The notes beneath the pieces were generated by a model. It searched no databases. It worked only from the letters and a program-made list of their open reading frames with translations, and was not told where the DNA came from. A DNA stretch of 37,533 nucleotides from Pricia antarctica. Its GTDB lineage: Bacteria > Bacteroidota > Bacteroidia > Flavobacteriales > Flavobacteriaceae. A program made the position numbers and the translations under genes. The DNA is taken from the NCBI RefSeq assembly GCF_900101815.1, contig NZ_FNAO01000015.1:1-37533 (forward strand), read 5' to 3'. This document shows positions 10,646 to 33,021 of this stretch, piece by piece (positions within the stretch are counted from its first letter, which is position 1; every line of letters starts with the position of its first letter).

Positions 10646-10669
10646 ATAATGATATAAATATTCTTGACA

Positions 10670-11954: not shown

Positions 11955-11990
11955 AAAAATGATATTTTGATCGGATTCCAATTGGATGTA

Positions 11991-14126
11991 ATGGAAAGAG
12001 CACGTTTTATAACTATTTTTTTTATCGGATTTACCCATTTGGTAGTTTCACAAACGGTGGATGTCCAGTATGATAAGTATTCTTCCACAGCAGCATATGC
12101 CGGTAGGAAATTGGAAAAATCCCTTTTGGGGCAGGGGTATCAGGTAAAGGGAGAACAGGTCGATTATTCCATCAATCTTACCCTGGATGACAAAATCCTG
12201 GACAAGGAGGCTTATGCCATAACAAGGGAGGGAAACCACATAACCATTACCGGAGGAGATGGAAAGGGTCTTATCTATGGGAGCCTTTCACTTGCTGAGG
12301 ATTTGGGAAATGGCGTTTCCCTTGAAAAAACGAAAGCAAGGAACCAAATTCCAAATTTAGCTTTCCGTGCTATAAAGTTCAATCTTCCATGGGACGCCTA
12401 TCGGGAAGGTTATGCGATGGACCTTCACATGGAAACCTGTAGGTCTGTCGATTTTTGGGAATCATTTCTGGATATGATGGCAGAAAACCGGTTCAATGCC
12501 CTGACATTATGGAACTTACATCCATTTACTTTTATGATCAAACCCAAGAACTTCCCGGAGGCAAGTCCCTTTACAGATCGGGAAATGAAAGAATGGCAAG
12601 ATTTGTACCACACTATTTTTCGAATGGCGAAGGAACGGGGAATCGAGACCTATATCGTAAACTGGAACATATTCGTCTCATCAGAGTTTGCCAAAGCACA
12701 TAACGTGGCGCTCGAAAATCTGAAAAATCGTATTCATTATGGAATTGGCGATACTTCTGAAGTTGTGAAACGATATACCAGGGAATCCGTAACCCAGGTT
12801 CTTGAGGAATATCCGAACCTATCAGGCCTCGGGTTTACCCATGGGGAGGCCATGAGAGGTATGACCCCAGCACAACGACAAGATTGGTTTAAAGACACCT
12901 TTATTGAAGGCATACGCCTTGCAGATCGCAAGACCAAACTTATACACAGGATTCCTCTTTTGGCCGATAATGATGCAGAACAGTTGACTCGGGATGCTAT
13001 GGAGGAGCTTGATTTTTTGGAAGGACCTATATGGGCGGAAGTAAAATTCAATTGGTCGCATGCCCATTCTACCCCAAAGTTTATAAAAGTACATGGCGGT
13101 AAACTGGGCGATACCTATTTCAAACCTGAGCCCAAGAACTATAAGATTGCCTGGATGGCAAGAAATGAAGATTTTTTTTGCCTCCGTTGGGGCGAGCCCA
13201 ATTTTATTCGAAAACATATAAGCACCAATACACAAAGTTATGTGGGCGGATATTTTGTGGGGTCCGAAGGGTATATCCCGGCAAAGGATTATTTTACAAA
13301 AATAACGGATTCCGTAGATTGGAAATATGCCTTTCAACGCCAATGGCTTTTTTATAAACTATGGGGCAGATTGCTATATGACCCTTCAACTCCCGACGCA
13401 GTTTTTGAAGCAGCGTTTACAAGACGTTATGGAAAAGAAGGTGAGAATTTGCTCCAAGCCTATTCGCTTGCCTCGACCGTCCCTTTGCGCTTGGCCTCTT
13501 CTTTCGATTTTACCTGGGATTTTTCGCTCTACAGCGAAGGGTTCATGGCTATGAACGGACAAAGTATGGACTATATTTCCATAGACCGACAAATCGAGCA
13601 ACAACCGGCGGACCCTAACTATGTATCCGTCAGTGATTATGTCAAAAAACGGCTTTTGGGAGAATCTTTTTCAAAAGATAGAATTACGCCCCCTGTTCTC
13701 GCCAATATGCTTGAAAAGGATTGTCAAATGGCCTTGCGCCTGATAAAAAACATCGATATCGATAAAAATAATTCCCTGCTGTACGAGGTGGCGGATATAA
13801 AAGTGTGGGCCAACTTGGGAATGTATTTTGCCGAGAAGCTGAAAGGAGCGGAGGCACTGCAAACTTATCGCTTGGAGGGAGGGGAAAAAAACAAGCAAAA
13901 TGGGATAAAGCATTTGCAAAACGCCCTTGGTTTTTGGGATAAGGTCATTGTGATAACCAGTCCCCTATACATGGAAATGCCGTTGGCGGCGTATAGTTAC
14001 CCACATGAAGGAAATGCATCGGTAATTAATGACAATCGAAAATTTCATTGGAAAAAGCTACGGCCGGAAGTAGCCAAGGATATTGTAATAGCTAAGAATA
14101 CCGTGGTAGAATCGAATGGGCAATAA
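11991..14126 (+). CDS. GH67-like alpha-glucuronidase-family protein, type A (module 2)
   Basis: 711 residues from ATG 11991. An in-frame TTG at 11967 is possible, but the ATG gives a clean signal peptide (FITIFFIGFTHLVVSQ). It is a full-length paralogue of the protein at 5761-7872: both have the N-terminal domain (TGGDGKGLIYGSLSL), barrel motifs FLDMMAENRFN and NWNIFVSSEFAKAHN, the candidate acid Glu286 in FTHGEAMRG, the second acid in AEVKFNWSHA, and GYFVGSEGYIPAKDY. The first copy is a lipoprotein; this one has an ordinary signal peptide, so the two may act in different places (surface versus periplasm). The start lies only 36 bases after the group II intron remnant. Function by fold: a glycoside hydrolase of the alpha-glucuronidase type; substrate unknown. 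Confidence 0.78.
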   Translation: MERARFITIFFIGFTHLVVSQTVDVQYDKYSSTAAYAGRKLEKSLLGQGYQVKGEQVDYSINLTLDDKILDKEAYAITREGNHITITGGDGKGLIYGSLSLAEDLGNGVSLEKTKARNQIPNLAFRAIKFNLPWDAYREGYAMDLHMETCRSVDFWESFLDMMAENRFNALTLWNLHPFTFMIKPKNFPEASPFTDREMKEWQDLYHTIFRMAKERGIETYIVNWNIFVSSEFAKAHNVALENLKNRIHYGIGDTSEVVKRYTRESVTQVLEEYPNLSGLGFTHGEAMRGMTPAQRQDWFKDTFIEGIRLADRKTKLIHRIPLLADNDAEQLTRDAMEELDFLEGPIWAEVKFNWSHAHSTPKFIKVHGGKLGDTYFKPEPKNYKIAWMARNEDFFCLRWGEPNFIRKHISTNTQSYVGGYFVGSEGYIPAKDYFTKITDSVDWKYAFQRQWLFYKLWGRLLYDPSTPDAVFEAAFTRRYGKEGENLLQAYSLASTVPLRLASSFDFTWDFSLYSEGFMAMNGQSMDYISIDRQIEQQPADPNYVSVSDYVKKRLLGESFSKDRITPPVLANMLEKDCQMALRLIKNIDIDKNNSLLYEVADIKVWANLGMYFAEKLKGAEALQTYRLEGGEKNKQNGIKHLQNALGFWDKVIVITSPLYMEMPLAAYSYPHEGNASVINDNRKFHWKKLRPEVAKDIVIAKNTVVESNGQ

Positions 14127-14354: not shown

Positions 14355-15383
14355 ATGAAAACATTATTTATACTCCCGCTACTTATTTTATTCGTTACAC
14401 AATCATTTTCTCAAAAATTACAGGAAAGAAAAGAGGGCAGCCCATTAGAAGGTTTGCCGGCTAACATTGAAATATTGACACTTTTTGGTGAAAGGGCCGA
14501 TTTCTCGCCTGACAACAAACGTGTAGCCTTCATGGCCAAAAGTTTTGGCGATGCCATGGTAATCGATTTGGAGACCCGAAAAATCGACTGCCTAACCTGT
14601 AATGTACCCGGTGCGGCGTTTCTAAGGGTAATGCATCTGGTTACAGGGGATTATCTTTTGATTGGGCCCGATAAGTTCGAGGACATCGAGACCAGTCGGG
14701 CTCGTGATAATGAACTTTGGTTCCTGAGTAAGAAACCCGGATCGAAACCGATTAAACTGGGCATGAAGATGAGCGAAGGCGCGGCAATTTCCAAAAAGAG
14801 TCTTCAAATCGCCTTTTCGCAGGTTCACGCCCAAAATCCCGAACTTCCCGAGGGTGCATCGCGTATCATAGTCACCAAATTGGATCTATCCAGCGGCACT
14901 CCCAAACTTGTAGATCAGAAGGCTGTATTTGAAAGCCCGGATAGAAGTTGTGTTGCAGAAGCACAGGATTTTTATGACAACGACACCAAGTTGACCTTTG
15001 CCTGTTATGAGCCTAAGGGCATGTCATCGGTCATGTCATTGGATTTGAGTACGGGCGAATCCACGAACTTTACTCCCACGCCTAATGTTTATGACGAGCC
15101 TGAAGGTATAATTCCGGGAGGAAAATATACACTGGTCGAGTCTGACCGGCAGTGTGAGTGGCTAGGTGGGAAGAGAGGATATCGTAACTGCGATATATGG
15201 AAACTCCGAATGGACGGAACCGAAAACGATTATGAACGCTTGACGAAATTTAATGATTATGTCAACGGAAAAGCCTCCAATCCAGTAGTATCCACGGACG
15301 GTAAACACATGGCCTTTCAGTTGGCCAACCCAAATGACCCCGCAGGTGTGGGTTATGGCCTTTTACTTTATAAATTCGATTAA
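14355..15383 (+). CDS. secreted PD40/TolB-type beta-propeller protein, copy 2
   Basis: 342 residues, the same length as copy 1 at 10670 and nearly collinear with it without gaps. Long segments such as ERADFSPDNKRVAFMAKSF and the NVPGAAFLRVMHLVTGDY region are shared unchanged. A signal peptide ends at FSQ. Conserved Cys residues (IDCLTCNVPG, DRSC, FACYEP) occur in both copies but not in the third, so a disulphide may be specific to this pair. Its role is unknown; see copy 1. The near identity shows that module 2 arose by duplication of module 1. The next propeller begins 10 bases after its stop. Confidence 0.8.
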   Translation: MKTLFILPLLILFVTQSFSQKLQERKEGSPLEGLPANIEILTLFGERADFSPDNKRVAFMAKSFGDAMVIDLETRKIDCLTCNVPGAAFLRVMHLVTGDYLLIGPDKFEDIETSRARDNELWFLSKKPGSKPIKLGMKMSEGAAISKKSLQIAFSQVHAQNPELPEGASRIIVTKLDLSSGTPKLVDQKAVFESPDRSCVAEAQDFYDNDTKLTFACYEPKGMSSVMSLDLSTGESTNFTPTPNVYDEPEGIIPGGKYTLVESDRQCEWLGGKRGYRNCDIWKLRMDGTENDYERLTKFNDYVNGKASNPVVSTDGKHMAFQLANPNDPAGVGYGLLLYKFD

Positions 15384-15393
15384 AGGAAAAACC

Positions 15394-16491
15394 ATGAACG
15401 AATTAGTTATCAATATGGTTAAAGATTCAGTAGGAATATTGAGTAAAAAGTTTAGTGTTTTTTCATGGGCCTTTTTTATGGTTACTGTTGTTAATGCCCA
15501 ATCAGCAAATGATAACGAATGGACGGATACACAATATCCACAATACATTGAGCGGCTCAACTATTTTGGGGAAAGGCCGGATTGGTCGCACGACGGCAAA
15601 AAAATACTTTTTGTAGGAAGGACTTTTGGTGATGTGTACGAAATCGAAGTCGCTACGGGAAAAATAGAATTGATAACGGGCCATTATTATCATGGGGGCT
15701 ATTCGAGGGCACTTTATCTATCCAACGGCGACATCCTGCTGCTGGGGCCTAAAAACTTTCCTTCGGATGATTGGAGGGAGGCACGGTTCAAGCTTACCGA
15801 ACTTTGGGTACTGGACAAAAAATTAAACAGCCCCCCGACCCGTCTGGGAGAATACATTTGGGAGGGCCCCGCGGTCTCAAGGACCCAGTTAAGAATTGCA
15901 TGGGCGGAACATCACGGTAACTATCCTGACCAGAGAAGATACTGGCAGATATGGTTGGCCGACATTGACTTTTCTTCGGGAAAACCTCAAATTAAAGACC
16001 AGCAAGTAGTACTGGATAACTCTAAAGGCGAGATAAAAGGTGCAGTGTTGGAGCCACAAAATTTCCTCCCCGGAAATGAAGATGAGCTTACCGTACAATC
16101 AAACCACGGAGGGACGGAGGTTATGCTGCTGAATTTGAAGAATGGTGAAATTGTCAACTTGTCAAAATCTCCAAACTCATATGATGAACCGGAAGGTATT
16201 TATCCAGATGGCAAATATACCTTGGTTGAATCTGATAGGCATCAAAAAACCGGGTCACAAATTGACCTTTATAAACTTAAGCTTGATACTAGTGAAAGCT
16301 GGGAACGCATTACTTATTTTAATGAACATGGGAAATACAAAGCCTCCAATCCTGTTATCAGCGATGACGGAAAGTTCATAGCTTTTCAGGTTCCACGATT
16401 GGACGAAGTGGCTGGTGTAGGACATGGAATTTACATTTTGGATGTTGAAAAATATGAAGAAGCGAAACTCAAAAAAGCAAAGAAAAGATGA
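15394..16491 (+). CDS. divergent PD40 beta-propeller protein, copy 3
   Basis: 365 residues from ATG 15394, which has AAAGGA just upstream; a later ATG at 15415 is also possible. A signal peptide runs to about VVNAQ. The family landmarks are kept (LNYFGERPDWSHDGKKILF, SYDEPEGIYPDGKYTLVESD), but the cysteines of copies 1 and 2 are missing and histidines are more frequent (GHYYHGGYSRA, WAEHHGNY, SNHGG, ESDRH). His-rich sites can bind metal in propeller lyases such as PL22, so this copy could be catalytic; that is inference. A charged Lys-rich tail (KLKKAKKR) ends the protein. Its stop overlaps the malate synthase start by 4 bases (ATGA), which ties glycan processing to glyoxylate metabolism in one transcript. 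Confidence 0.78.
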   Translation: MNELVINMVKDSVGILSKKFSVFSWAFFMVTVVNAQSANDNEWTDTQYPQYIERLNYFGERPDWSHDGKKILFVGRTFGDVYEIEVATGKIELITGHYYHGGYSRALYLSNGDILLLGPKNFPSDDWREARFKLTELWVLDKKLNSPPTRLGEYIWEGPAVSRTQLRIAWAEHHGNYPDQRRYWQIWLADIDFSSGKPQIKDQQVVLDNSKGEIKGAVLEPQNFLPGNEDELTVQSNHGGTEVMLLNLKNGEIVNLSKSPNSYDEPEGIYPDGKYTLVESDRHQKTGSQIDLYKLKLDTSESWERITYFNEHGKYKASNPVISDDGKFIAFQVPRLDEVAGVGHGIYILDVEKYEEAKLKKAKKR

Positions 16492-18140
16492 ACGAAAAAC
16501 AGAGAGAACTTAGGGAAACACATAAAGATATGCCACAATTGAATTTCAAAATAAACGGAGTGGAGATCAAAGGCGAAATAGAATCCGGCTTTGAATCTAT
16601 TTTGACAAAGGAGGCTATCGAATTTGTTGTAAAACTGCATCGGAAATTTAACGGTACCAGAAAGCACTTATTGGAAGATAGGTGGAAACGTCAAAAAGAA
16701 ATTGATAAGGGTGTTTTTCCTGATTTTTTGGAGGAAACCATCTCCATAAGGGAAGGTAATTGGCAGGTCGGAAATATTCCGGACGATCTTCAGGACAGGC
16801 GAACGGAGATCACGGGCCCCGTAGACAGAAAAATGGTAATCAATGCCTTAAACTCGGGGGCAAAGGTATTTATGGCGGATCTGGAGGACGCAAGTTCGCC
16901 TACATGGCATAATTGCTTGGATGGACAGATCAACCTTAAGGATGCGGTGAGGAAACGGATAGACTTTACGGCTCCCAACGGAAAGGACTATAAACTGAAA
17001 GACGAAACAGCAGTGCTAATGGTGAGGCCCCGGGGGTGGCATTTAACGGAAAAACATATCGAGGTGGACAGTGAGCCGATGTCGGCATCACTGTTCGATT
17101 TTGGCATGTACTTCTTCCATAATGCCAAAGAGCTAATGTCCAAGGGTTCCGGCCCATATTATTACATTCCCAAATTGGAAAACCATAAAGAGGCCAGGCT
17201 GTGGAACGATGTCTTTATATATGCGCAACAAACACTGGGCATTCCTGTAGGTACTATAAAGGTCACCGTTTTGCTGGAGACTATCCTTGCCAGCTTCGAA
17301 ATAGAGGAGATATTGTTCGAACTGAAGGATCATATTGTCGGAATGAACGCCGGACGATGGGATTATATATTCAGTGTAATTAAAAAATTCAGGAACCACA
17401 AGGATTTTATCCTGCCCGATCGGGACCAGATCACCATGAACGTTCATTTTATGAAATCATATGCCGAACTTTTGGTAAAGCTATGCCATAAAAGGGGCGC
17501 ACATGCCATTGGCGGGATGTCGGCATTCATTCCTTCCAAAAACGAGAAAAGCAATAAACTGGCTTTTGAAAAAGTGACCAAGGACAAAAAGAACGAAGCA
17601 AGTCAAGGATATGATGGCACATGGGTAGCGCATCCATTTCTTGTGCCTATCGCTATGGAACAGTTTAATAACGAATTCGGGGACAAGCCCCACCAGAAAC
17701 ATGTACTTCGTAAAGAAGTAACGGTCAATGGAAAAGATTTGATAGACACATCCATCAAGGAAGGAAAAATCACGGAAGCAGGACTCAGGCTCAATATCAA
17801 TGTTGGGATATTATATATTGAATCCTGGCTACAAGGTGTCGGGGCGGCCGCATTGTACGACCTGATGGAAGATGCGGCGACCGCAGAAATCTCCAGGGCG
17901 CAGGTCTGGCAATGGCTGCACAATGATTCCGTAAGCTTAGATGACGGACGTATCATTAATTTGCCACTTTACGAAAAACTATTCGAGGAAGAAAAATCAA
18001 AAGCTGCCGAACTGTTGGGCAAAGAACGTACTTCTACCGGCAAACTGGAGATTGCAGCAAGACTGTTCGACTCTATGGTAAGAACACAGGATTTTGAGGA
18101 TTTTTTGACTTTGGACGCTTATAATAAACTTAAGGGGTGA
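16488..18140 (+). CDS. aceB: malate synthase A
   Basis: 550 residues, full length (E. coli AceB is 533). It condenses glyoxylate with acetyl-CoA to malate in the cytoplasm. Family landmarks run the whole length: DRRTEITGPVDRKMVINALN (104-123), RPRGWHLTEKH with the active-site Arg (from 180), IVGMNAGRWDYIF, HAIGGMSAFIPS, AHPFLVPIAMEQF, and LMEDAATAEISRAQVWQWLH with Asp462 in the position of the catalytic base. The start overlaps the upstream propeller stop (ATGA), suggesting translational coupling. No isocitrate lyase is encoded in the window, so here it probably disposes of glyoxylate from the neighbouring lyase or dehydrogenase rather than serving only the glyoxylate shunt. Confidence 0.96.
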   Translation: MNEKQRELRETHKDMPQLNFKINGVEIKGEIESGFESILTKEAIEFVVKLHRKFNGTRKHLLEDRWKRQKEIDKGVFPDFLEETISIREGNWQVGNIPDDLQDRRTEITGPVDRKMVINALNSGAKVFMADLEDASSPTWHNCLDGQINLKDAVRKRIDFTAPNGKDYKLKDETAVLMVRPRGWHLTEKHIEVDSEPMSASLFDFGMYFFHNAKELMSKGSGPYYYIPKLENHKEARLWNDVFIYAQQTLGIPVGTIKVTVLLETILASFEIEEILFELKDHIVGMNAGRWDYIFSVIKKFRNHKDFILPDRDQITMNVHFMKSYAELLVKLCHKRGAHAIGGMSAFIPSKNEKSNKLAFEKVTKDKKNEASQGYDGTWVAHPFLVPIAMEQFNNEFGDKPHQKHVLRKEVTVNGKDLIDTSIKEGKITEAGLRLNINVGILYIESWLQGVGAAALYDLMEDAATAEISRAQVWQWLHNDSVSLDDGRIINLPLYEKLFEEEKSKAAELLGKERTSTGKLEIAARLFDSMVRTQDFEDFLTLDAYNKLKG

Positions 18141-18222
18141 TTGAAAAATCCCCTTTCTTGAGTATTTTTTTTACAATCCCAATGCTTTTGAAGTACAGAT
18201 CCACAACAAAAACCAATCGAAT

Positions 18223-19887
18223 ATGTCAACGTCGTTACTTGCATTTTTAGCGGTGGTACCCATATTAACCGCCGCGGTTCTCTTGACAGGCTTTAGAACC
18301 CCTGCCAAAAAAGCAATGCCCGTTTCATTTTTGGTCACGGTTGTTATTGCTTTTGCGGTCTGGGATATCCCTATTATCGATATTATGGCCTCTACCGTTC
18401 AAGGGCTGTTCATCACTTTTGACATATTGTACATTGTTTTTGGTGCCATTGTATTATTGAATCTGCTCAAGTATTCAAAGGCTCTCAGGACAATCCGGGA
18501 AGGTTTTGCGAACATATCGGAGGACCGTAGGGTACAGGTGGTCATAATTGTCTGGCTGTTCGGTTCCTTTATCGAAGGGGCCGCCGGGTTCGGTACACCG
18601 GCAGCAATCGTTGCACCGCTCTTGGTGGGCCTGGGTTTTCCCGCCTTTTGTGCGGTAATGTTGGGCATGATGGTGCAGAGTACCGCGGTATCCTTTGGGG
18701 CCGTGGGCACTCCCATACTGGTCGGGGTAAGTGGCGGGATCCAAAGTCCCGAATTTACCGCCGAGCTGGCCGCATCGGGGCTTGAACTTTCCGATTACAT
18801 ACAGTTGGTGACCTCCGACGTGGCAATCCTACACGGTATAACCGGAACGCTTATGCCTACCCTTATGGTCTGCATGATGACCCGGTTTTTTGGCAAGAAC
18901 AGATCATGGAAAGAAGGCCTGCAGGTACTGCCCTTTACTGTTTTCGGGGGACTCGCTTTTACTGTCCCCTATGTGCTTACGGGCATATTTCTTGGCCCAG
19001 AATTCCCTTCGATGCTCGGTGCGTTGGTGGCCATACCTATTGTTGTAATTGCTGCAAAACGTGGTTTTTTGATGCCGAAAAAAATATGGGATTTTGATGC
19101 CGAAAAAAATTGGCCTACCTCTTGGTTCGGTACTTTGAACGTAAAATTCGACAGTAGCGGCGACCAAAAAAAAATGTCCTTGGGCAAGGCATGGTTGCCC
19201 TATCTTAGTATGGCCGCGCTTTTGGTACTGTCAAGACTTCCGCAACTGCCGCTAAAGGGGTGGCTTAACGATGTTAAGGTTACATGGGCAGAGATATTCG
19301 ATACCTCCATCTCGGCATCCAGCACTCCGCTCTATCTGCCAGGCACCATTTTGTTATTGGCGGGGATCATTACAATAGGGCTGCATAAAATGAAATCCGA
19401 CAAGGTCAAGGTCGCGTTCAAGGATAGTGCAAGAATGCTGTTGGGCGCCGGTTTCGTTCTCGTTTTTACGGTCCCGATGGTCCGTATCTATATCAATTCG
19501 GGCGCAAATCCTGCAGGTCTTCCCGGTATGCCCATAGCCATGGCGGAGTGGGTCGCTGGCAAGGCGGGTGCCATATATCCCCTGTTCGCCCCCACCATCG
19601 GTGCGTTGGGTGCATTTATTGCGGGCAGCAATACGGTCAGTAATCTTATGTTATCGCTGTTCCAGTTCGGTGTGGCCGCCAAATTGGAAATGCCCTCTTT
19701 TATTATCGTAGCGCTCCAGGCTGTAGGAGCTGCAGCGGGAAACATGATCGCGATCCACAATGTTGTGGCCGCTTCGGCTACCGTCGGATTTTTAGGAAAG
19801 GAAGGGATAGTCCTGAGAAAAACAATATTGCCGACCATTTATTATTTGGTCGTTGTCGGCCTCTTGGGGCTGTTGCTGCTTTCCTGA
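18223..19887 (+). CDS. LctP/GlcA-family lactate/glycolate permease
   Basis: 554 residues with roughly a dozen membrane segments and the family signature FGSFIEGAAGFGTPAAIVAP, plus FGAVGTPILVGVSG and the C-terminal AGSNTVSNLMLSLFQFG. LctP/GlcA proteins of E. coli and relatives (about 550 residues) carry L-lactate, D-lactate and glycolate with protons across the inner membrane. Placed between malate synthase and a 2-hydroxyacid dehydrogenase, glycolate (or D-lactate) is the likeliest cargo; the sequence alone does not decide. It starts 82 bases after malate synthase and 52 bases before the PAL-like gene, and is probably in the same operon. Confidence 0.92.
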   Translation: MSTSLLAFLAVVPILTAAVLLTGFRTPAKKAMPVSFLVTVVIAFAVWDIPIIDIMASTVQGLFITFDILYIVFGAIVLLNLLKYSKALRTIREGFANISEDRRVQVVIIVWLFGSFIEGAAGFGTPAAIVAPLLVGLGFPAFCAVMLGMMVQSTAVSFGAVGTPILVGVSGGIQSPEFTAELAASGLELSDYIQLVTSDVAILHGITGTLMPTLMVCMMTRFFGKNRSWKEGLQVLPFTVFGGLAFTVPYVLTGIFLGPEFPSMLGALVAIPIVVIAAKRGFLMPKKIWDFDAEKNWPTSWFGTLNVKFDSSGDQKKMSLGKAWLPYLSMAALLVLSRLPQLPLKGWLNDVKVTWAEIFDTSISASSTPLYLPGTILLLAGIITIGLHKMKSDKVKVAFKDSARMLLGAGFVLVFTVPMVRIYINSGANPAGLPGMPIAMAEWVAGKAGAIYPLFAPTIGALGAFIAGSNTVSNLMLSLFQFGVAAKLEMPSFIIVALQAVGAAAGNMIAIHNVVAASATVGFLGKEGIVLRKTILPTIYYLVVVGLLGLLLLS

Positions 19888-19939
19888 TTTGCCTGCGAAG
19901 TTTAAGATTATAATATGGAACTACGTCAATTGAAAAAGT

Positions 19940-20959
19940 ATGTTTATGATATTTGATTTAAAAAGAATATTGCCCATTTATTGCCTGATGGTCCTTAACT
20001 TGTTTTATGGGCAAGAAAATACACAAAAATCAGGAAACAAGGACAGTTATCGGTTGGTGGAGGACTGGCCTCGTTCGCGTTCGGATTCAGTTATGGGACA
20101 ACCTTCCGGGCTAGGGGTGGACAGCCATGGCGACCTTATTGTCTTTCATCGTGCAGGGGCCGCTTCCGGGGCCGATCCCAGTATCCTTATCCCGAGGAAC
20201 ACCATAGTAAAATTAGAGGCAAAAACGGGCAAGGTCCTCGATGCCTGGGGTGCCGACCTCTTTTCCTGGCCCCATGGACTAAACGTGGACCGGGACGATA
20301 ATATTTGGGTCACGGATGTAGGGCTTCATCAAGTCTTTAAGTTTGCCGCCAATGGCAAGTTGCTGATGAAATTGGGCGTAGCGGGGGAACCGGGGTCGGA
20401 TTCCCTGCATTTTAACAAGCCTACGGATGTGGCAGTAGCGGAAGATGGATCTTTTTATGTGTCCGATGGTTACGGAAACAGTCGTATCGTTAAATTTTCT
20501 CCTTCCGGAAAGTTTTTGTTCCAATGGGGAGAAAGCGGTAACGGAAATGGACAGTTTCATATTCCCCATTCCATTGATATCGATGGGGACGGTAACGTAA
20601 TCGTAGCCGATCGCGAAAATGCGCGTATCCAAAAGTTTGATGCCAGGGGAAATTTTTTAATGGAATGGAAGAACGGTTCCGGTGCTGCTGTATATGGCGT
20701 AAAGGCCGTTCCTTCCCAGAATACTTTATTCGCCGTGGATTATCTTGTGAAGAACGATACCTTGATCTTAGGGTCGAATATCATCCGATTCGGGCCTGAT
20801 TTCAATGTCCGAAAGCAGTTTGGCAGGATCGGCTCCTATGTTGGCCCGATATGCCGGTACCACGACATAGAATTGGACGGTAAACAAAATATCTATGTCG
20901 CAGACCTTCTGTACAACCGGGTACAAAAGTTTCAATTGGTTAAATCGAACCTACATTAA
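19940..20959 (+). CDS. peptidyl-alpha-hydroxyglycine alpha-amidating-lyase-like beta-propeller (PAL-like)
   Basis: 339 residues with a signal peptide to about LFYGQ, so it acts in the periplasm or outside. NHL-type repeats form a six-bladed propeller closely matching the lyase domain of animal peptidylglycine amidating enzyme. WVTDVGLHQVFKF, PTDVAVAEDGSFYVSDGYGN and ADRENARIQKF align with the animal segments VTDVALHQVFK, PTDVAV...YVSDGYCNSR and ADRENGRIQ. The known active-site set appears kept: Arg71 (FHR), zinc-type His112 (PHG), His210 (PHS) and His308 (YHD), Tyr178 (DGY) and Arg225 (DRE). The family reaction splits X-CH(OH)-COOH into X-H and glyoxylate. The neighbours use glyoxylate, which supports that chemistry here. 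No copper hydroxylase partner is encoded nearby, so the substrate need not be a peptide; ureidoglycolate-like or hydroxylated carboxymethyl compounds are alternatives. Confidence 0.85.
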   Translation: MFMIFDLKRILPIYCLMVLNLFYGQENTQKSGNKDSYRLVEDWPRSRSDSVMGQPSGLGVDSHGDLIVFHRAGAASGADPSILIPRNTIVKLEAKTGKVLDAWGADLFSWPHGLNVDRDDNIWVTDVGLHQVFKFAANGKLLMKLGVAGEPGSDSLHFNKPTDVAVAEDGSFYVSDGYGNSRIVKFSPSGKFLFQWGESGNGNGQFHIPHSIDIDGDGNVIVADRENARIQKFDARGNFLMEWKNGSGAAVYGVKAVPSQNTLFAVDYLVKNDTLILGSNIIRFGPDFNVRKQFGRIGSYVGPICRYHDIELDGKQNIYVADLLYNRVQKFQLVKSNLH

Positions 20960-20966
20960 CAATACT

Positions 20967-23846
20967 ATGGAAAATCTATTTTTCAAGCTGAAAAACGACA
21001 TTAAGGGAGATATCTTGATTGATGAGTACTCCCTAGGCATGTACGCTACCGATGCCAGCATCTATCAGATAAAGCCTATCGCCGTAATCCTGCCCAAGGA
21101 TGCCGAGGACGTAAAAGCTGCGGTTTGTGTTGCAAAAAAAAATAACATTACCATTCTTCCAAGGGGCGCTGGCACCAGTCTGGCCGGACAGACGGTAGGC
21201 CATTCCATGATATTGGATTTTTCCAAATACATGAATACCCTACTGGAAATAAACGAACAGGAAAAATGGGTACGTGTACAACCGGGCATGGTTAGGGACG
21301 ACCTCAATGCGGAATTGAAGCCCTACGGTCTACATTTAGCGCCCGACCCTGCTACCGGTAGCAGGGCGAATGTCGGGGGGATGGTGGGAAACAATTCCTC
21401 CGGCACCAAAAGTATTCTGTACGGCAAGACCGTGGACCATGTTCTCGAGGCTTCTGTGCTGCTCGCGGATGGCACTATGCTGCACTTTAAGAACTGTTCC
21501 CCTCAAGCATTTTCGGCAAAAGCCGCACAGACCAATAGGGAAGGGGAAATCTATGCCTCCTTTAAACAACTGATAGATACCCATTCCGAAGAGATCAAGC
21601 ATCGATTTCCCAAGGTTATGCGTCGGGTGGGCGGCTACAATTTGGACGAGTTCGTTTATACCGACCAATGGAATTTAAGCAAACTGGTCTGTGGCAGCGA
21701 AGGCACCTTGGCAACGACCTTGGAATTAAAGATGAACCTAACGCCGTTACCCAAGCACAAATCGATCTGTGTGGTACATTTTTCGGAGGTTCTGGAAGCG
21801 ATAGCTGCGGTCGAGTATATGCTGCCCTTCCGGCCTTCCGCGGTCGAAATTTTGGACAAGACGGTGGTGGACCTTAGCAGGGAGAACCTGACCACGAAGC
21901 ACCATTGCCATTTTATCGAGGGAAACCCTGCCGCCATATTGATCGTGGAATTTTATGGAGACACTATGCAAGACGTAATGGACAGGCCCGAACAAATGAT
22001 TGCACGACTGAAAGAAAAAGGATTCGGGTACGCGTACCCGATTTTTCCGGAAGGTGAAGCTTATGAGGATGTATGGGTCATCCGTAAAAAGGGACTGGGA
22101 CTTATGCTGGGTCTCAAAGGAAATAAAAAGCCCCTGGCGTTTATCGAGGATGCGGCAATACCCTCGGAACACTTGCCCGAATATATCGACAAGGTTTTGA
22201 AAATATGCGAAAAACACGGTACCAAAGCGGCCATGTACGCCCATGCTAGCGTGGGGGTCATTCATGTCCGTCCGATATTGGACCTAAGGCTGGCCGAGGA
22301 CATCGAACGATTGAAGGGAATTACCGACGACACCTTTGAACTGGTGATGGAATACAAGGGCTCGTGGAGCGGGGAACATGGCGATGGTCTAGTACGAAGC
22401 GCCTACAATAAACGATTTTTCGGGGAGACCCTGTACGGGGCCTTTTTGGAGATAAAAAAACTTTTCGACCCCGATAACCTGATGAACCCCGGTAAAATTG
22501 TCGAGGCCCAGACAATCGAGCATAACTTGCGCTATGGTACGGCCTATAAAGATCAATCCATTAGAACGGAATATAAATACAAGGCCGAGGAAGGTTTTGA
22601 ATCTTCCGTACATATGTGCACCGGGGTGGGTGAATGCCGAAAATTGCTCGGGGGAACCATGTGCCCAAGTTTTAAGGCTACCAGGGACGAGGAACATTCC
22701 ACGCGCGGTAGGGCAAATGCACTTCGAATGGCTATGTCCGGCCAATTCGGGGAAGAAGGGCTGTCGAGCAAGCGCCTCCACGAGGTCATGGACCTTTGTC
22801 TTTCCTGCAAGGCGTGTAAGTCCGAATGTCCCAGTAATGTGGATATGGCAAAAATGAAAAGCGATACCCTGCAAATGTATTACGACGAACATGGCATTAC
22901 TTTCAGGGATCGGCTGATACGCGGTTCGGCAAAGGCCGCGGCAAATATTTCAGGGTGGAAAGCGGGCGCAGTGAATACCGTTCAAAGAAGCGGTCTGTTC
23001 CGATTTATTTTGGAACTTACGGCCAAAATCGACAAGCGGAGGATTATGCCCGAATTTGCTCAACAGCCATTTTATAAGTGGTTCGAAAAACATGCCCATA
23101 AAACGAACACGGGGAATAAAAAGGTGGTATTGTTCGCCGATACCTATTTAAACTATCACGAGCCCCGAATCGGCATCTCCGCCCTTCAATTATTGAATTC
23201 TTGCGGATATGAGGTAATTTTGGCGAACGTAGGCTGCTGCCAAAGGCCCAAAATTTCCCATGGTTTCCTTAGGGATGCCAAAAGGGACGGCTTAAAAACA
23301 ATGAGCGGCCTAAAAACATTCTTGGACAAGGGGCTAAAGGTCGTGGTCTGCGAGCCTAGCTGTGCCTCCGCCCTGAACGATGACCTGCCGGATCTTATAG
23401 CCGATCAGGATATGGCCGATCAATTGAAAAACGGAGTGATGATGATCGACGTCTTCCTGGCCGATGAAATGGAAAAAGGCCGGTTGGATGTCCATTTTGA
23501 ACCAATTTCCAAGGCCTTGGCCATTCACGGGCATTGCCACCAAAAGGCATTGTACGGCACCAATGCGATGAAGGCCTTACTAAAGGATTCCGTAAAGGGG
23601 GTCCAAGAAATACCATCCGGTTGCTGTGGTATGGCGGGTTCCTTCGGATATGAGAAGGAACACTATGACCTGTCCAAAAAAATCGGTGGGGAAGTTCTGT
23701 TCCCGGCCGTGGAACGATTGCAGGAAGATCACGATATAGTGGCCTGTGGATTTAGTTGCCGTCATCAAATACAACATTTTACCAAGGCAAGACCGATACA
23801 CTTTGTAGAGTCCATAAGGGCGGTAAAAAATAATGATATAAACTAG
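20967..23846 (+). CDS. fused FAD/Fe-S D-2-hydroxyacid dehydrogenase (GlcD-GlcF/YdiJ-like)
   Basis: 959 residues from ATG 20967, 7 bases after the PAL-like gene; an in-frame earlier start at 20895 would lie inside that gene and is unlikely. Order: FAD-binding PCMH domain (about 35-270; LPRGAGTSLAGQTVG, NNSSGTKSILYGKT), FAD-oxidase C domain (about 270-530; GSWSGEHGDGLVRS), ferredoxin-like Cys clusters (from 551, CTGVGEC, and 611, CLSCKACKSECP), then two CCG repeats (near 757 and 886, GCCGMAGSFGYE) that bind a further Fe-S centre. This architecture matches E. coli YdiJ and the fused GlcD-GlcF type, which oxidise D-2-hydroxyglutarate, D-lactate or glycolate and pass electrons to the respiratory chain. 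With malate synthase and the transaminase beside it, glycolate to glyoxylate is the favoured reaction; D-lactate is the main alternative. Confidence 0.9.
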   Translation: MENLFFKLKNDIKGDILIDEYSLGMYATDASIYQIKPIAVILPKDAEDVKAAVCVAKKNNITILPRGAGTSLAGQTVGHSMILDFSKYMNTLLEINEQEKWVRVQPGMVRDDLNAELKPYGLHLAPDPATGSRANVGGMVGNNSSGTKSILYGKTVDHVLEASVLLADGTMLHFKNCSPQAFSAKAAQTNREGEIYASFKQLIDTHSEEIKHRFPKVMRRVGGYNLDEFVYTDQWNLSKLVCGSEGTLATTLELKMNLTPLPKHKSICVVHFSEVLEAIAAVEYMLPFRPSAVEILDKTVVDLSRENLTTKHHCHFIEGNPAAILIVEFYGDTMQDVMDRPEQMIARLKEKGFGYAYPIFPEGEAYEDVWVIRKKGLGLMLGLKGNKKPLAFIEDAAIPSEHLPEYIDKVLKICEKHGTKAAMYAHASVGVIHVRPILDLRLAEDIERLKGITDDTFELVMEYKGSWSGEHGDGLVRSAYNKRFFGETLYGAFLEIKKLFDPDNLMNPGKIVEAQTIEHNLRYGTAYKDQSIRTEYKYKAEEGFESSVHMCTGVGECRKLLGGTMCPSFKATRDEEHSTRGRANALRMAMSGQFGEEGLSSKRLHEVMDLCLSCKACKSECPSNVDMAKMKSDTLQMYYDEHGITFRDRLIRGSAKAAANISGWKAGAVNTVQRSGLFRFILELTAKIDKRRIMPEFAQQPFYKWFEKHAHKTNTGNKKVVLFADTYLNYHEPRIGISALQLLNSCGYEVILANVGCCQRPKISHGFLRDAKRDGLKTMSGLKTFLDKGLKVVVCEPSCASALNDDLPDLIADQDMADQLKNGVMMIDVFLADEMEKGRLDVHFEPISKALAIHGHCHQKALYGTNAMKALLKDSVKGVQEIPSGCCGMAGSFGYEKEHYDLSKKIGGEVLFPAVERLQEDHDIVACGFSCRHQIQHFTKARPIHFVESIRAVKNNDIN

Positions 23847-23889
23847 AACAAGCTCTGAAACCAAATGTATAAAAATAAAAATAACGACA

Positions 23890-25002
23890 ATGGGAAAAAT
23901 TGATGAAATGAAAACAAGTACAAGGGTTTTGATGGGCCCTGGTCCAAGTGAGGTACATCCGAGGGTATTACGGGCAATGGCCACTCCTTTGATAGGGCAT
24001 CTGGACCCCGAATTTTTAGGGGTTATGGATGATATCAAGGCCATGACACAAGAAACCCTGCAAACAAAAAATCCGTTGACCTTTGTCGTCTCGGCCCCGG
24101 GAAGTGCAGGAATGGAGACTTGTTTGGTCAACCTACTGGAACCTGGGGACGAAGCTGTAATATGCATACACGGTGTTTTTGGGAACCGTATGGCCGAAAT
24201 TGCGGAACGGTGTGGGGCAAAAGTTATAAAGGTCGAGGCGGAATGGGGAACGCCGATAAAAATAGAGGACGTTGAGCGGGCCTTGAAAAATAGATCGCCA
24301 AAAGTTTTGGCCATCGTACATGCCGAAACTTCCACCGGCGTATTACAGCCTCTGGAAGAGATAAGTAGGTTGACCAAAGCGGCTGGAGCCCTTTTTGTGG
24401 TGGATGCAGTAACCTCCTATTGCGGGGCCGAGCTGAAAGTTGACGAATGGGGCATCGACGCCCTCTATTCCGGTACCCAGAAGTGTTTGAGCGCACCTCC
24501 GGGACTTTCCCCTGTCACTTTTAGTCAAGCTGCCATTGACGTTCTGGAAAGTCGAAAGACCAAGGTGCAGAGCTGGTTTTTGGATTTAACGCTGGTCAAA
24601 AATTATTGGGCGGGGGCCAAAAGGGCCTATCACCATACGGCCCCGGTATCGGCCATGTACGCCATGCGCGAAGCGTTGCGCATTGTTTTGGAGGAAGGCC
24701 TTGCCGATCGTTTCAAAAGACATCAAAGAAACTATGAACTGCTACGTGACGGACTGGAAAATATGGGGATTAAATATTTAGTGGAGGAAAAGTACCGATT
24801 GCCCATGTTGAATGCCGTGCGAATTCCGGAAGGTGTTGACGATACCGATGTCAGGAAACGCCTTTTGGAAAAATACAATATAGAAATCGGTGGTGGCTTG
24901 GGACCCTTTGCCGGAAAGGTTTGGCGCATCGGTCTAATGGGGGAAAGCTCGGATGCCAACCATGTAAATATGCTGCTGGCGGCACTTAAGGATGTTATGT
25001 GA
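23890..25002 (+). CDS. alanine/serine-glyoxylate-type aminotransferase (class V, PLP)
   Basis: 370 residues. The fold and motifs match human AGT: LMGPGPSEVHPRVL near the start, VVDAVTSYCG with the PLP-binding Asp172, SGTQKCLSAPPG with Schiff-base Lys198, YHHTAPVSAMYAMREAL, and IEIGGGLGPFAGKVWRIG with the carboxylate-binding Arg346. It would convert glyoxylate plus alanine (or serine) to glycine plus pyruvate (or hydroxypyruvate). PucG, the ureidoglycine-glyoxylate transaminase, belongs to the same family and cannot be excluded, which is of interest beside the PAL-like lyase. A second ATG at 23908 (MKTSTRVL) is also a plausible start. It lies 43 bases after the dehydrogenase and is the last gene before a strong terminator. 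Confidence 0.92.
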   Translation: MGKIDEMKTSTRVLMGPGPSEVHPRVLRAMATPLIGHLDPEFLGVMDDIKAMTQETLQTKNPLTFVVSAPGSAGMETCLVNLLEPGDEAVICIHGVFGNRMAEIAERCGAKVIKVEAEWGTPIKIEDVERALKNRSPKVLAIVHAETSTGVLQPLEEISRLTKAAGALFVVDAVTSYCGAELKVDEWGIDALYSGTQKCLSAPPGLSPVTFSQAAIDVLESRKTKVQSWFLDLTLVKNYWAGAKRAYHHTAPVSAMYAMREALRIVLEEGLADRFKRHQRNYELLRDGLENMGIKYLVEEKYRLPMLNAVRIPEGVDDTDVRKRLLEKYNIEIGGGLGPFAGKVWRIGLMGESSDANHVNMLLAALKDVM

Positions 25003-25278
25003 TTTTTTCGGAATTTACTGAAAAGAAAAGTAAGCGTATGATTTTTCATGCTGATCAAAAATACGGCTATATCAATGGTCGAGACAACTAATATTATTAT
25101 AGCCCTGATAACGGAATTCCATTTAATCCGATAAATGATTATTTCGTCCCAAAGTAGTTGATGGCAAAATAATGTGGGGAAAACCATCCGAATAATTAAA
25201 ACAAAAAACCCCTATTACAGAAGCGATTGGACAAGAAGAAAGCTTTAAAAGAAAGTTAGTTTGAGTTAGTTAGTTTTG

Positions 25279-25313
25279 GGCGCAGTGCATTTAATCGGCA
25301 CTGCGCCTTTTTT
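25279..25313 (+). terminator. strong intrinsic terminator closing the long operon
   Basis: GGCGCAGTGC (25279-25288) and GCACTGCGCC (25298-25307) form a perfect 10-bp GC-rich stem with a 9-base loop, followed by six T (25308-25313). It stands 276 bases after the aminotransferase stop and is the best terminator in the window, so it separates region 1 from the type B gene at 25677. Confidence 0.92.
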
Positions 25314-25676: not shown

Positions 25677-28600
25677 ATGGCTGACATTATCAGTGAAAAG
25701 AAAACCCTAAAATTATGGACTTTTGCATGTGTTTTCATTTTGTTCAATAGTATCCAGGCCCAGAGCCTTAGGATTATTCTAGGAAACGAAATTGAGAACG
25801 ATCCTGTAGCATATTATGGAGTAGAAATCTTTCGGGATTCTATGAAAGAAGTGGGATGGAACTGTTTTATAGAAAACGAACTGACGCCCTTACGAAAGTA
25901 CGATCACCAGATACTCTTGGGATTTAGTGAGGGAAACGAGCTGTCCAATCGCCTTTTTAAAACGACAGGGAAAATAAGCCCTAAGGTTCCACAGAGTTAT
26001 GCTTTGGTGTCAACTTTATGGAAAGGTAGTCCTGTAACAATCGTGATGGCGTTCGATTCCATTGGCCTTATTTATGCCTTGCAGGAATATGCTAAGATTG
26101 CCTTAGAGCTGGGCAATCAATCATTGTCCCAAAAATTGCCAGTTACACGTAGTCCATTTATCGCAGAACGGGCAATTTCAAAGACGGTTATGAACCCTTC
26201 GGAGTTTGAGCAATATTTCTATAACGACAATTACTGGAACGAATATTTTGATATGCTCGTCAAAAACAGATATACCACTTTCGTATTGATTATGGGATAT
26301 AACTCTACGGGATATTTTTCCCCACCATATCCATATCTTTTTGATGTGCCTGGATTTGAATCTGTAAAAGTCTTGGGACTTTCGGCCGAGTCTCAACTCC
26401 GTAATCTTAAGGCCTTGGATAATATAATAAACGCGGCACATAAACGGGGTTTATTATTTAAATTGGGAATATGGACACATATCCATCGAGGACTCCCAGT
26501 GGGAATATGGACAGATACTCATCGATTACTCCCAGAAGAAATGGACCCTATAGGAATAAATGATGAAAATTTGTTGGCTTACACGCAAAAAGCATTGCCG
26601 AAATTATTGAACACTTATCCTGGTCTGGACGGACTACAGTTTCGCGTACATTTTGAATCCTCCCTGCCATTGCCCAGACAACTAGAATTTTGGAATTCGA
26701 TATATAATGCAATAGGTCGTAGCGTTCATCCGAATATCGCAATCGATATGAGGGCAAAGGGCTTTACAGATGATCTTATTGATCAGGCAAATCAAAGTGG
26801 TTTGAATATACGTATAACTACAAAATTTTGGGGCGAACAAATGGGGCTTCCTTATGCACCTATACAATTAGGCCGGGCAGATCAATTTATAAGACGCCAT
26901 GGGTATGCCGATTTGCTTAATTACCCAAAACAAATGAAAATGCATTATAGGCTGTGGAATTTTGGAACTACCCGAGTGCTGCCCTGGGCAGACCCGCAAT
27001 ATGCTAAGAACTTTGTGAAAAATGTGATGGAATTGGATGGTGATGGATTTGAGGTAAATGAACCTTTAGCCTTCAAAATGGCTGGGGTTAAAGGAAATAC
27101 ATACGATGTTCTCCAAAAGAAATATCAGTATTATGACTGGGAATGGAAACGTTATAATCACTTTTATCAGATTTTTGGACGTATTGGGTACGACCCTAAT
27201 CTTAATGAAAATTATTACATCAGTGATTTCGAAAATGGTTATGGGAAAATAGCTGGGCCTTTGCTTATGAGTGCTTTGCATAAAGCAAGTCGTATATTAC
27301 CTAGAATAAACGCATATGCCTTATATGATATTAGTGCTGATTACAGTTGGGCTGAGAAACAACGATGGGGAGATCTTCCTACCTACGCATCCACGCTACC
27401 ATCGGACGTTGGTCAATTTTTATCTATGCAAAAAGCGACCCGACTTGATTTAGCGGGTAAGACTTCGCCGAAAGTTCATCCCAAAACTACTGCAAGGTGG
27501 TTTGAAAATCAATCAAAAGATGTGATGGATTTGGTTAATAAAGCTGAAAAAGAGAAAAAGGGTCCCAAGGACAAAGCATTTACTGGGATGATAAAAGACC
27601 TAACCATACTTTCACTTTTAGGGGATTATCATGCAAAGCGTATCCCAGCCGGGCTGAACTATGCCTTATATAAACAAACAGGGAATCCTCAAGCTTATCT
27701 CGATGCCATAACGTCGGAAAAGGAAGCCATAAATACTTGGAAAAAAATTGTGGAGCTTACCGAAGGATATTTCAATGATGATCTTATAATGGGCGATACG
27801 AAACGTATGCGGGGGAATTGGAAAGATGAATTAAACCTTCTTGAAGAAGGATATAAAAAGTTATCTAATCAAGATTATAAAGCTAAAACAGAGCCTCAGA
27901 AGATAGTAACATATGACATGGGCCCTTTAATATCCGTGAAAGGTGATGTTAAAATTGACGCCCCACAAACTGCTCCTTGGTACCAACAGTTTGACATAGG
28001 TAATCACGGGTGGACGAATCATAATATTTTTATTGAGACAAGTAGTAATGAATGGACGAAACGCTCTTTACGACATGACAGTGATAGAGATTTTCTTCGT
28101 GGCCCTCATCAAACTGCCTATGCTACTTTTTCAACAAAAATACCCAATGGAAATTATCGAATTGATTTTGTCATGTTCGATTCAAGAGACGCTCCGGAAG
28201 ATTATGGTCCTATGTGGTTGCGCGCTAATGGAGTTAATAAGACCAATGAATTTAAAGTGCCGGCCGGAGAGCGAGTAGTTCGTTCATTGGAAGCAAGGGT
28301 TACAGATGGTTGGTTAAATCTTACTGTTGCTAGTAAAACTAACTCGATGTGGTTATTAAATAGTATTTCAATATATGATTTGGGCCCTTCTATTGTACAA
28401 CTGAGTCCAAAATATGTAAAACCAAATCAACCCTACACCTTAACTGTATTGGTAAAATCCTTGGATTCAATTAGAAATGCTGTACTAACCTACGGTGATT
28501 TGTTAACAGGAATGAAATCTGTTCCTATGAAAAAAATACAGCCAGGACGTTTTCAAGCGATAATTCCTACTTTAGAAGGTGTTGAAAAACTAAATTATAA

Positions 28601-29018
28601 AATCGATATCGAAGATGACCAGGGGAGATGTACATTGTATCCAAAGGCAGAACTGGACAATGCCTTCGCCAGCATATTCTTTACCAATGATTTTGAGGCA
28701 CCAATTGTAGAGCATGAACCAATAATCTCCTTTTCGAATAAAGATGCATTGGTTATTCGAGCGAAAGTATCAGATGCCTCGGCTATTAAATCTGTATATG
28801 TTAAATTTCGTGGTTTAAACCAGCATCAAAATTACGGTTCAGTTGCTTTAATCCCAAAGGGGAATGGATATTATGAGGCCGTTATTCCCGAATCACTATT
28901 ACCCAAGAAATGGGATTTAATGTACTATTTTGAGGCATGCGACAATCAAGGCAATATTACTATGTTTCCCGATTTCGAGAAAAGAACCCCTTATTTTATA
29001 GCACGATATGAAAAATGA
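25677..29018 (+). CDS. large type B GH67/GH20-like glycosidase-family protein with extra binding domains
   Basis: 1113 residues with a signal peptide to about SIQAQ. The first about 730 residues match the type B protein at 8018: N-terminal domain, barrel (YWNEYFDMLVKNRYTTFVL), candidate acid Glu327 (VHFESSLP), DMRAKGF, TTKFWGEQMGLPY, LDGDGFEVNEPLA and the helical domain. An insert of about 160 residues follows (about 745-905, WYQQFDIGNHGWTNHNIF to WLLNSISIYDLGP), which looks like a jelly-roll, malectin-like or carbohydrate-binding domain. Two Ig-like repeats end the protein; the last (YVKFRGLNQHQNYG to DLMYYFEACDNQGN) matches the single C-terminal domain of the other type B proteins. The gene is AT-rich compared with 16-25 kb. 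It stands alone after a terminator, so it is regulated separately. Substrate unknown. Confidence 0.75.
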   Translation: MADIISEKKTLKLWTFACVFILFNSIQAQSLRIILGNEIENDPVAYYGVEIFRDSMKEVGWNCFIENELTPLRKYDHQILLGFSEGNELSNRLFKTTGKISPKVPQSYALVSTLWKGSPVTIVMAFDSIGLIYALQEYAKIALELGNQSLSQKLPVTRSPFIAERAISKTVMNPSEFEQYFYNDNYWNEYFDMLVKNRYTTFVLIMGYNSTGYFSPPYPYLFDVPGFESVKVLGLSAESQLRNLKALDNIINAAHKRGLLFKLGIWTHIHRGLPVGIWTDTHRLLPEEMDPIGINDENLLAYTQKALPKLLNTYPGLDGLQFRVHFESSLPLPRQLEFWNSIYNAIGRSVHPNIAIDMRAKGFTDDLIDQANQSGLNIRITTKFWGEQMGLPYAPIQLGRADQFIRRHGYADLLNYPKQMKMHYRLWNFGTTRVLPWADPQYAKNFVKNVMELDGDGFEVNEPLAFKMAGVKGNTYDVLQKKYQYYDWEWKRYNHFYQIFGRIGYDPNLNENYYISDFENGYGKIAGPLLMSALHKASRILPRINAYALYDISADYSWAEKQRWGDLPTYASTLPSDVGQFLSMQKATRLDLAGKTSPKVHPKTTARWFENQSKDVMDLVNKAEKEKKGPKDKAFTGMIKDLTILSLLGDYHAKRIPAGLNYALYKQTGNPQAYLDAITSEKEAINTWKKIVELTEGYFNDDLIMGDTKRMRGNWKDELNLLEEGYKKLSNQDYKAKTEPQKIVTYDMGPLISVKGDVKIDAPQTAPWYQQFDIGNHGWTNHNIFIETSSNEWTKRSLRHDSDRDFLRGPHQTAYATFSTKIPNGNYRIDFVMFDSRDAPEDYGPMWLRANGVNKTNEFKVPAGERVVRSLEARVTDGWLNLTVASKTNSMWLLNSISIYDLGPSIVQLSPKYVKPNQPYTLTVLVKSLDSIRNAVLTYGDLLTGMKSVPMKKIQPGRFQAIIPTLEGVEKLNYKIDIEDDQGRCTLYPKAELDNAFASIFFTNDFEAPIVEHEPIISFSNKDALVIRAKVSDASAIKSVYVKFRGLNQHQNYGSVALIPKGNGYYEAVIPESLLPKKWDLMYYFEACDNQGNITMFPDFEKRTPYFIARYEK
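26466..26537 (+). repeat. in-frame 36-base tandem duplication inside the glycosidase gene
   Basis: Two adjacent 12-codon units (26466-26501 and 26502-26537) encode GIWTHIHRGLPV and GIWTDTHRLLPE. The homologue at 8018 has only one such segment (GIWDHIYRGG), as does the one at 29274 (GLWGHAYES). The duplication lengthens a loop after a barrel strand and keeps the frame. Confidence 0.9.
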
Positions 29019-29273
29019 AAAAACAAACAATTTAAATAAAGGCAAATCAACTCGATTGATTGTACGACAAACGTCACTTTAAGCTGCTTTTTGATAGAAA
29101 TTTTTGATTTTTTCCCATTGAAGAACTGGACAGGTTATCAATACCTAAAACCAATTTTGGTCAAATCGCTGCGTAACCAGTAATTTATTGTTCTTATAAA
29201 TCGAATTCAAATGCATTGATAGAATATGCATGTGGAGAGTATTAAGGATTTATTTCATCTTAAATCATCTAAA

Positions 29274-32879: not shown

Positions 32880-33021
32880 AAGTAACCACTTTTCATGTTT
32901 TCTGTCAAAAAGTAATCGTTTTTCACGGAAAGTAATCGTTTTTCATGCTATATTTGTAATCACATTTCATGAAAGATGGTCATAAGTAATCGATTTTCAC
33001 GGAAAGTAACCACTTTTCATG
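32880..33021 (+). repeat. six-copy array of an 18-base repeat before and inside the Fic gene start
   Basis: Copies of AAGTAAyCrnTTTTCAyG lie at 32880-32897, 32910-32927, 32930-32947, 32954-32971 (degenerate), 32984-33001 and 33004-33021. The first and last are identical. Multiple short direct repeats near an end are usual for IS21-family elements, so this may be the relic end of such an element. No transposase is beside it. Confidence 0.8.

Follow-up and report, generated by a model that had tools for sequence, protein, structure and literature searches.

A putative glyoxylate cassette with a PAL-like lyase inside a polysaccharide-utilization locus of Pricia antarctica

Why should a locus for the breakdown of a glycan contain genes whose predicted products meet on glyoxylate? 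The question is raised by a 37,533-nucleotide stretch of the Pricia antarctica genome (Flavobacteriaceae; assembly GCF_900101815.1, contig NZ_FNAO01000015.1, positions 1 to 37,533; hereafter the window). Here, genes for a secreted propeller, malate synthase (aceB), a permease, a lyase resembling PAL, a FAD/Fe-S dehydrogenase and an aminotransferase form a cassette within a polysaccharide-utilization locus (PUL). In animals, PAL forms the second part of the enzyme that amidates peptides, and glyoxylate is released there as a by-product. An earlier interpretation made without database searches (the sequence-only reading) had proposed a polysaccharide system yielding glyoxylate, with the PAL-like lyase at its center. 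We consider it moderately likely that the cassette is an operon that makes and uses glyoxylate inside a glycan-utilization locus, composed of a portable core to which malate synthase and an exported PAL have been joined. A glycan is one possible origin of the glyoxylate.

The order, strand and coordinates of the genes, as first described, were borne out by profile searches and a gap map. All genes of the cassette (15394-25002) lie on the + strand, spaced by -4 to 82 bp. From the propeller gene at 14355 onward the intergenic distances are 10, -4, 82, 52, 7 and 43 bp, followed by 674 bp, and the -4 spacing is an ATGA overlap between the end of propeller gene 15394 and the start of aceB, the 4-base overlap that had been claimed. 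The terminator proposed for the end of the run was also recovered, as a hairpin at 25278-25308 inside a T run (Table 1); a consensus terminator scan missed it, presumably owing to a maximum loop of 8 in that scan, against 9 here. The promoter scan was close to the shuffled level (32 versus 27.4 +/- 6.1). We infer that the cassette genes are co-transcribed. Upstream of 14355 the spacings are 26, 226, 145, 18, 268 and 228 bp, and with distances of 18 to 268 bp a single transcript from susC is not established.

Malate synthase provides the first indication that glyoxylate is the meeting point. A profile search found this single malate synthase in the genome, and it is of type A, with a cut-off of 594.5 bits for the matching model (Table 1) and only 27-37 bits for the G-type models. 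No match to the isocitrate lyase family PF00463 was found in the same genome, with a positive control for this model that matched in 8 of 14 known genomes. Thus, since no isocitrate lyase was matched, the enzyme apparently serves no glyoxylate shunt. Isocitrate lyase was present in all ten relatives that carry malate synthase, adjoining it in nine and lying on another contig in the tenth (G095). A plasmid search with the malate synthase returned 83 records, all below 60% identity, and these were not used.

The best solved relative of the aminotransferase is the Anabaena alanine-glyoxylate aminotransferase 1vjo (49% identity; Table 1), with PucG second at 331.9 bits; the BhcA equivalog of the beta-hydroxyaspartate cycle was missed (209.6 against 650). 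Homologues at 66-68% identity occur in three further genomes of the family, bringing the total to 10 of 397, and two of these three nearest relatives outside the cassette stand in uric-acid gene clusters (G248 and G052). Glyoxylate is a product of uric-acid breakdown. Around the G248 homologue, a profile scan placed allantoinase, a UraD/HIU hydrolase and XdhC above cut-off, whereas XdhA and two relatives of allantoate amidohydrolase fell short of theirs; G052 shows the same succession of gene lengths, with allantoinase above cut-off. The third, G391, is unlike a uric-acid cluster, the two neighbors scanned being DnaB and one unmatched protein. The motifs GHLDP and YHHTAP of 1vjo are kept in all ten sequences of the group, where PucG has GQFDP and NHHTEA, at positions that we take to matter for specificity. 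The enzyme is therefore predicted to be of the alanine-glyoxylate type. A uric-acid-type cluster in a genome of this family, at L111:1044-12895, includes an aminotransferase of glyoxylate type along with two relatives of allantoate amidohydrolase.

For the NHL-propeller protein 19940, rat PAL (3fvz) came first among 40 PDB sequences. Its AlphaFold2 model (pLDDT 87.0, pTM 0.85) has the PAL propeller fold, and Foldseek again ranked 3fvz first (E 1.4e-27, TM 0.78/0.80), followed by the next structure at E 1.5e-18. In the rat PAL alignment, R71, H112, Y178, H210 and R225 fall on the corresponding residues, and a short C-terminal alignment matches H308; the rat counterparts (Arg533, His585, Tyr654, His690, Arg706 and His786) are presumably the catalytic and zinc residues. 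Across 17 chosen sequences all of these are invariant except R71, which is nearly so. All six are kept in 23 of the 31 other aligned loci (L003 and L010-L039), the departures being L017, L018, L021, L022, L036, L037, L038 and L039. A hydrophobic N-terminus suggests that the protein is exported. A passage of PMC12636437 gives an amidated peptide and glyoxylate as products of the PAL reaction. Convergence of the cassette on glyoxylate, as claimed in the sequence-only reading, is thus well supported: the aminotransferase is of the alanine-glyoxylate type, malate synthase stands without a detected isocitrate lyase, and the lyase is of PAL type.

PAL of this kind is rare. The P. antarctica genome has one full-length match; the full-length type was found in one of 98 relatives besides (G058, 50% identity), where other matches were partial at 31-37%, and in one other of 394 sampled genomes of the phylum (G805, 44%). 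By a rough estimate for a genome of 4.85 Mb, chance would place the sole malate synthase, or the sole full-length PAL, at this site on the order of once in 1000 times each. A more distant NHL protein (G000:C20:345931-346404, L008) is present in the same genome and in four relatives.

We mapped 32 PAL loci (30 of 31 named loci, G058 and G805), some of them on short contigs, and in all 32 neither malate synthase, LctP permease nor aminotransferase was found nearby. G805 encodes a relative of the dehydrogenase (27% over 505 aa) about 6 kb from PAL. In a verrucomicrobial locus (L040:10001-12037, coverage 0.09), a short broken PAL-like stretch stands just 5' of a 51% identical LctP permease, a pairing that is suggestive and possibly an assembly artifact. 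In the Flavobacteriales locus L011:5466-9618, overlapping genes for a BNR-repeat protein, PAL and a 251-aa protein are followed, two genes on from PAL, by a PNGase F homologue (370 bits), giving PAL a second glycan or glycoprotein setting, possibly a glycoprotein-degrading operon. This last gene had been a candidate for PHM, with which PNGase F domains share their fold; its Pfam domains identify it as the PNGase F homologue, and it carries no HH or HxH motifs. Another PAL-like protein, in L018, has lysine for the first arginine and lies near SusC/SusD.

What recurs in relatives is a smaller unit. Of the 396 other family genomes searched, 6 have a close orthologue of the dehydrogenase at 79-83% identity (7 of 397 with P. 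antarctica itself); the aminotransferase gene adjoins it in all six, and the permease gene in five (G250 is the exception). The three genes are codirectional in three of the six, with permease-dehydrogenase spacings of 15, -4 and 12 bp, and it is this junction, where the genes abut in three relatives, that PAL occupies here at 52 and 7 bp. The neighbors of the core include inositol-type and arabinose genes and GH92 (G258 and G417), sulfatases (G230), GH3, GH20 and SusD (G250), Kelch, metalloprotease and epimerase genes (G021), and Nramp and GntP genes (G040). Carbohydrate genes stand beside it in at least four of the six genomes, and such genes are dense in Flavobacteriaceae. Because its neighbors differ across the six genomes, the core is a portable module that is not bound to any single glycan. 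Malate synthase and PAL are additions to it in this genome, as far as sampled, and the insertion point of PAL and the overlap of aceB with the propeller gene are the best hints that these additions are functional. A paralogue of the dehydrogenase (37-43% identity) is found in P. antarctica and in 60 of the 98 relatives; the same-genus genomes G001-G003 have the paralogue only (G003 is 79% complete). A route from pentoses through glycolaldehyde was considered as well, but the aldehyde dehydrogenases encoded close to the core in two genomes (G258 and G250) gave it no support: one is a methylmalonate-semialdehyde dehydrogenase (542.2 against 448.5), and the other fell under all cut-offs shown (succinate-semialdehyde dehydrogenase, 346.1 against 646.35).

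Our model for the substrates, the direction of flow and the export of PAL is inferred from these assignments. The LctP-type permease would import a small 2-hydroxy acid, with glycolate as the likeliest candidate and glyoxylate as another, and the dehydrogenase, in which a profile search found FAD_binding_4, FAD-oxidase_C and Fer4_8 domains, would oxidize glycolate to glyoxylate. The aminotransferase would convert glyoxylate to glycine, and malate synthase A would route it into the tricarboxylic acid cycle. Outside the cytoplasm, PAL may release glyoxylate, along with an amine or amide, by cleaving an N-linked alpha-hydroxyglycine or a ureidoglycolate-like group; a glycan decoration, a peptide product and ureidoglycolate are the candidate substrates. 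A more specific proposal, in which secreted PAL frees glyoxylate from an X-CH(OH)-COOH decoration of, or accompanying, the glycan or glycoconjugate of the locus, and malate synthase and the aminotransferase assimilate it, we regard as rather unlikely.

Several observations weigh against our main model, the glyoxylate operon inside the glycan locus. GC content at third codon positions is 0.50-0.56 in the permease, PAL, dehydrogenase and aminotransferase genes versus 0.33-0.47 in the PUL genes, which is consistent with separate histories. The permease gene is oriented oppositely in two of the five core genomes that have it (G021 and G040), malate synthase is found in none of the six other core genomes, and the complete gene set was seen in one genome, as sampled. 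Among ten distant Bacteroidota malate synthases (56-61% identity), five neighborhoods were read; KKCGH, which we take as the isocitrate lyase motif, was nearby in two and not in the other three, so that non-adjacency is not unusual there. The sequences of the permease (GlcA 125.7 against 1121; L-lactate permease 148.7 against 918) and of the dehydrogenase (glcD 221.9 against 567.9; YdiJ, D-2-hydroxyglutarate, 628.5 against 1350; top PDB match glycolate oxidase at 121.1 bits, with D-lactate dehydrogenase level at 120.0) do not separate glycolate from lactate. As for PAL, a Drosophila NHL protein, at 171.1 bits over several stretches, nearly equals the 172.5 of rat PAL; the distant NHL protein of the L008 type keeps most PAL residues, with Thr at the first arginine, so that residue conservation alone is not specific (its local alignment spans only about residues 60-240, leaving the last histidine uncertain); and a search of the P. 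antarctica genome for a PHM partner, run without a positive control, gave no PF03712 match. The suggestion of a conserved polysaccharide-to-glyoxylate system is not supported, given that the core lies beside differing genes in six genomes and the 32 mapped PAL loci lack malate synthase, LctP and the aminotransferase; PAL, aceB and their partners were never combined as a full set in the sampled relatives, an outcome that the sequence-only reading had itself listed as counting against it.

How else could the locus be explained? Uptake of algal glycolate is a simpler reading than a glycan origin: the core would act as we propose, so that the two readings overlap, but purely to scavenge glycolate, its placement in the locus would be positional or ecological, and PAL would have a separate role. 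We give this slightly less than an even chance. The E. coli glc operon follows the same scheme of oxidase, permease and malate synthase, the differing neighbors of the core fit scavenging, and algae release glycolate at very large scale according to the abstract of PMC11323563. However, scavenging does not explain why PAL was inserted into the cassette or why aceB overlaps by 4 bp a secreted-propeller gene that has paralogues in the PUL. Use of lactate or another 2-hydroxy acid, with a D-lactate-type dehydrogenase forming pyruvate on which the aminotransferase would act, appears improbable. The permease family is named after lactate, D-lactate dehydrogenases are among the PDB matches of the dehydrogenase, and Shewanella has a permease-dehydrogenase pair for D-lactate; but the aminotransferase is nearest to glyoxylate enzymes, and we reject a lactate operon as the principal explanation, since it has no place for malate synthase and PAL.

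Purine-derived ureidoglycolate would make PAL a ureidoglycolate lyase, working with an aminotransferase of purine-cluster kind. Mammalian PAL accepts ureidoglycolate, and relatives of the aminotransferase do occur in uric-acid clusters. Nevertheless, we hold this route to be highly improbable: it is disfavored by the lack of an allantoinase above cut-off in P. antarctica (G000), in a scan that found weaker relatives in 12 of 12 genomes and only G248 and G052 above cut-off, and at two positions the aminotransferase agrees with 1vjo and differs from PucG. Ureidoglycolate might still be imported. Finally, 19940 could be a non-catalytic propeller and the cluster a chance pile-up, since NHL propellers are common as binding modules, other NHL proteins score near PAL by sequence, and part of the residue set also occurs in the distant NHL protein encoded by this genome. 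Against this, rat PAL tops both the sequence and the fold rankings, the latter clearly; none of the six key residues (both arginines, the tyrosine and the three histidines) has been lost; and the gene sits inside a recurrent cassette. This explanation is accordingly distinctly improbable.

The glyoxylate cassette is embedded in a polysaccharide locus, as the sequence-only reading had it, with a SusC/SusD pair (616 and 4074) and glycosidases on both sides. The label GH67-like given to the latter is roughly right: the five proteins (5761, 8018 and 11967 upstream, 25677 and 29226 downstream) are mutual paralogues, and their scores against the NCBIfam alpha-galacturonidase model NF049878 (151, 55, 151, 18 and 65 bits, in that order) are far under its cut-off of 1300. 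As the target, a uronic-acid glycan would be our guess. Three related secreted propellers (10664, 14355 and 15394) precede aceB; for the last, a sequence search of the PDB at E 0.01 gave no match, and its poor AlphaFold2 model (pLDDT 61.8) matched generic propellers. Further along the window, genes for a Fic/DOC-domain protein (32976-34520, +) and a HipA-C protein (35271-36527, -) lie outside the system described here.

Table 1. Features of the polysaccharide locus and of the putative glyoxylate cassette within it.
Feature	Coordinates	Strand	Evidence
SusC/RagA TonB-linked porin	616..4047	+	TIGR04056 917.5 bits, cut-off 368.25
SusD-like lipoprotein	4074..5534	+	PF07980/PF14322
GH67-like/alpha-galacturonidase-like glycosidase	5761..7872	+	NF049878 150.8 bits; 47% identical to 11967
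GH67-like paralogue	8018..10645	+	NF049878 55.2 bits; 42% to 25677 over 677 aa
Secreted propeller	10664..11698	+	78% identity to 14355; start maybe ATG two codons in
GH67-like glycosidase with GH20b domain	11967..14126	+	PF02838; NF049878 151 bits; PDB BPa0997 107.8 bits
Secreted beta-propeller, no assigned role	14355..15383	+	39% identical to 15394
Secreted TolB/PD40-like beta-propeller	15394..16491	+	PF07676; 4-bp overlap with aceB
Malate synthase A (glyoxylate + acetyl-CoA -> malate), predicted	16488..18140	+	TIGR01344 758.5 bits
LctP-family lactate/glycolate permease	18223..19887	+	TIGR00795 347.3 bits, cut-off 341.15
PAL-like lyase, NHL propeller	19940..20959	+	Rat PAL 3fvz 172.5 bits; Foldseek rank 1; key residues
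YdiJ/GlcD-GlcF-type FAD + Fe-S 2-hydroxy-acid dehydrogenase	20967..23846	+	PF01565, PF02913, PF13183; NF049975 628.5/1350
Alanine-glyoxylate-type aminotransferase, class-V, predicted	23890..25002	+	1vjo 392.5 bits; 67% homologue in G248
Intrinsic terminator	25278..25313	+	11-pair stem, loop 9, T run, -21.5 kcal/mol
GH67-like paralogue, downstream of cassette	25677..29018	+	42% identical to 8018 over 677 aa
GH67-like paralogue, downstream of cassette	29226..32042	+	27% to 8018 over 899 aa; NF049878 65 bits

Among the papers listed by our literature searches, none dealt with a PUL with glyoxylate genes and none with a catabolic bacterial PAL; a passage of PMC4620155 names glycolate oxidation genes for proteobacterial genomes only. 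The gene set points tentatively to a source of glyoxylate that has not been described. A bacterial PAL among glyoxylate consumers would mean that PAL chemistry is used for nutrition, and would indicate an unrecognized hydroxyglycine-type group in natural polymers; under the less likely proposal of a glycan decoration, a polysaccharide locus would be feeding on glyoxylate and PAL would have a catabolic role. Even the simpler reading gives Flavobacteriaceae a glycolate/glyoxylate cassette, in which two-carbon acid use can be tested.

How does the cassette compare with known systems? The E. coli glc operon (glcDEFGBA), which the sequence-only reading did not raise, combines an oxidase, a permease and malate synthase, and the resemblance is that a single operon encodes an LctP/GlcA-family permease, a FAD/Fe-S oxidase and malate synthase. 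Here, in contrast, a fused YdiJ-like protein replaces GlcDEF, malate synthase is of type A rather than G, an aminotransferase and PAL are added, and the whole is embedded in a PUL; the GlcD and GlcA equivalogs were not reached. With animal PAL, the P. antarctica protein shares the NHL propeller, the best sequence and fold match and the key residues, whereas it is bacterial, stands alone with no PHM partner matched, and lies beside glyoxylate-using genes. The aminotransferase resembles Anabaena 1vjo in overall identity and in both motifs, and differs in that its gene shares a cassette with those of a permease and a 2-hydroxy-acid dehydrogenase. Known SusC/SusD PULs share the SusC/SusD pair and a glycosidase set, but this locus also carries genes of two-carbon acid metabolism. 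The cassette is thus a variant of a glycolate/glyoxylate operon, notable for its well-conserved bacterial PAL.

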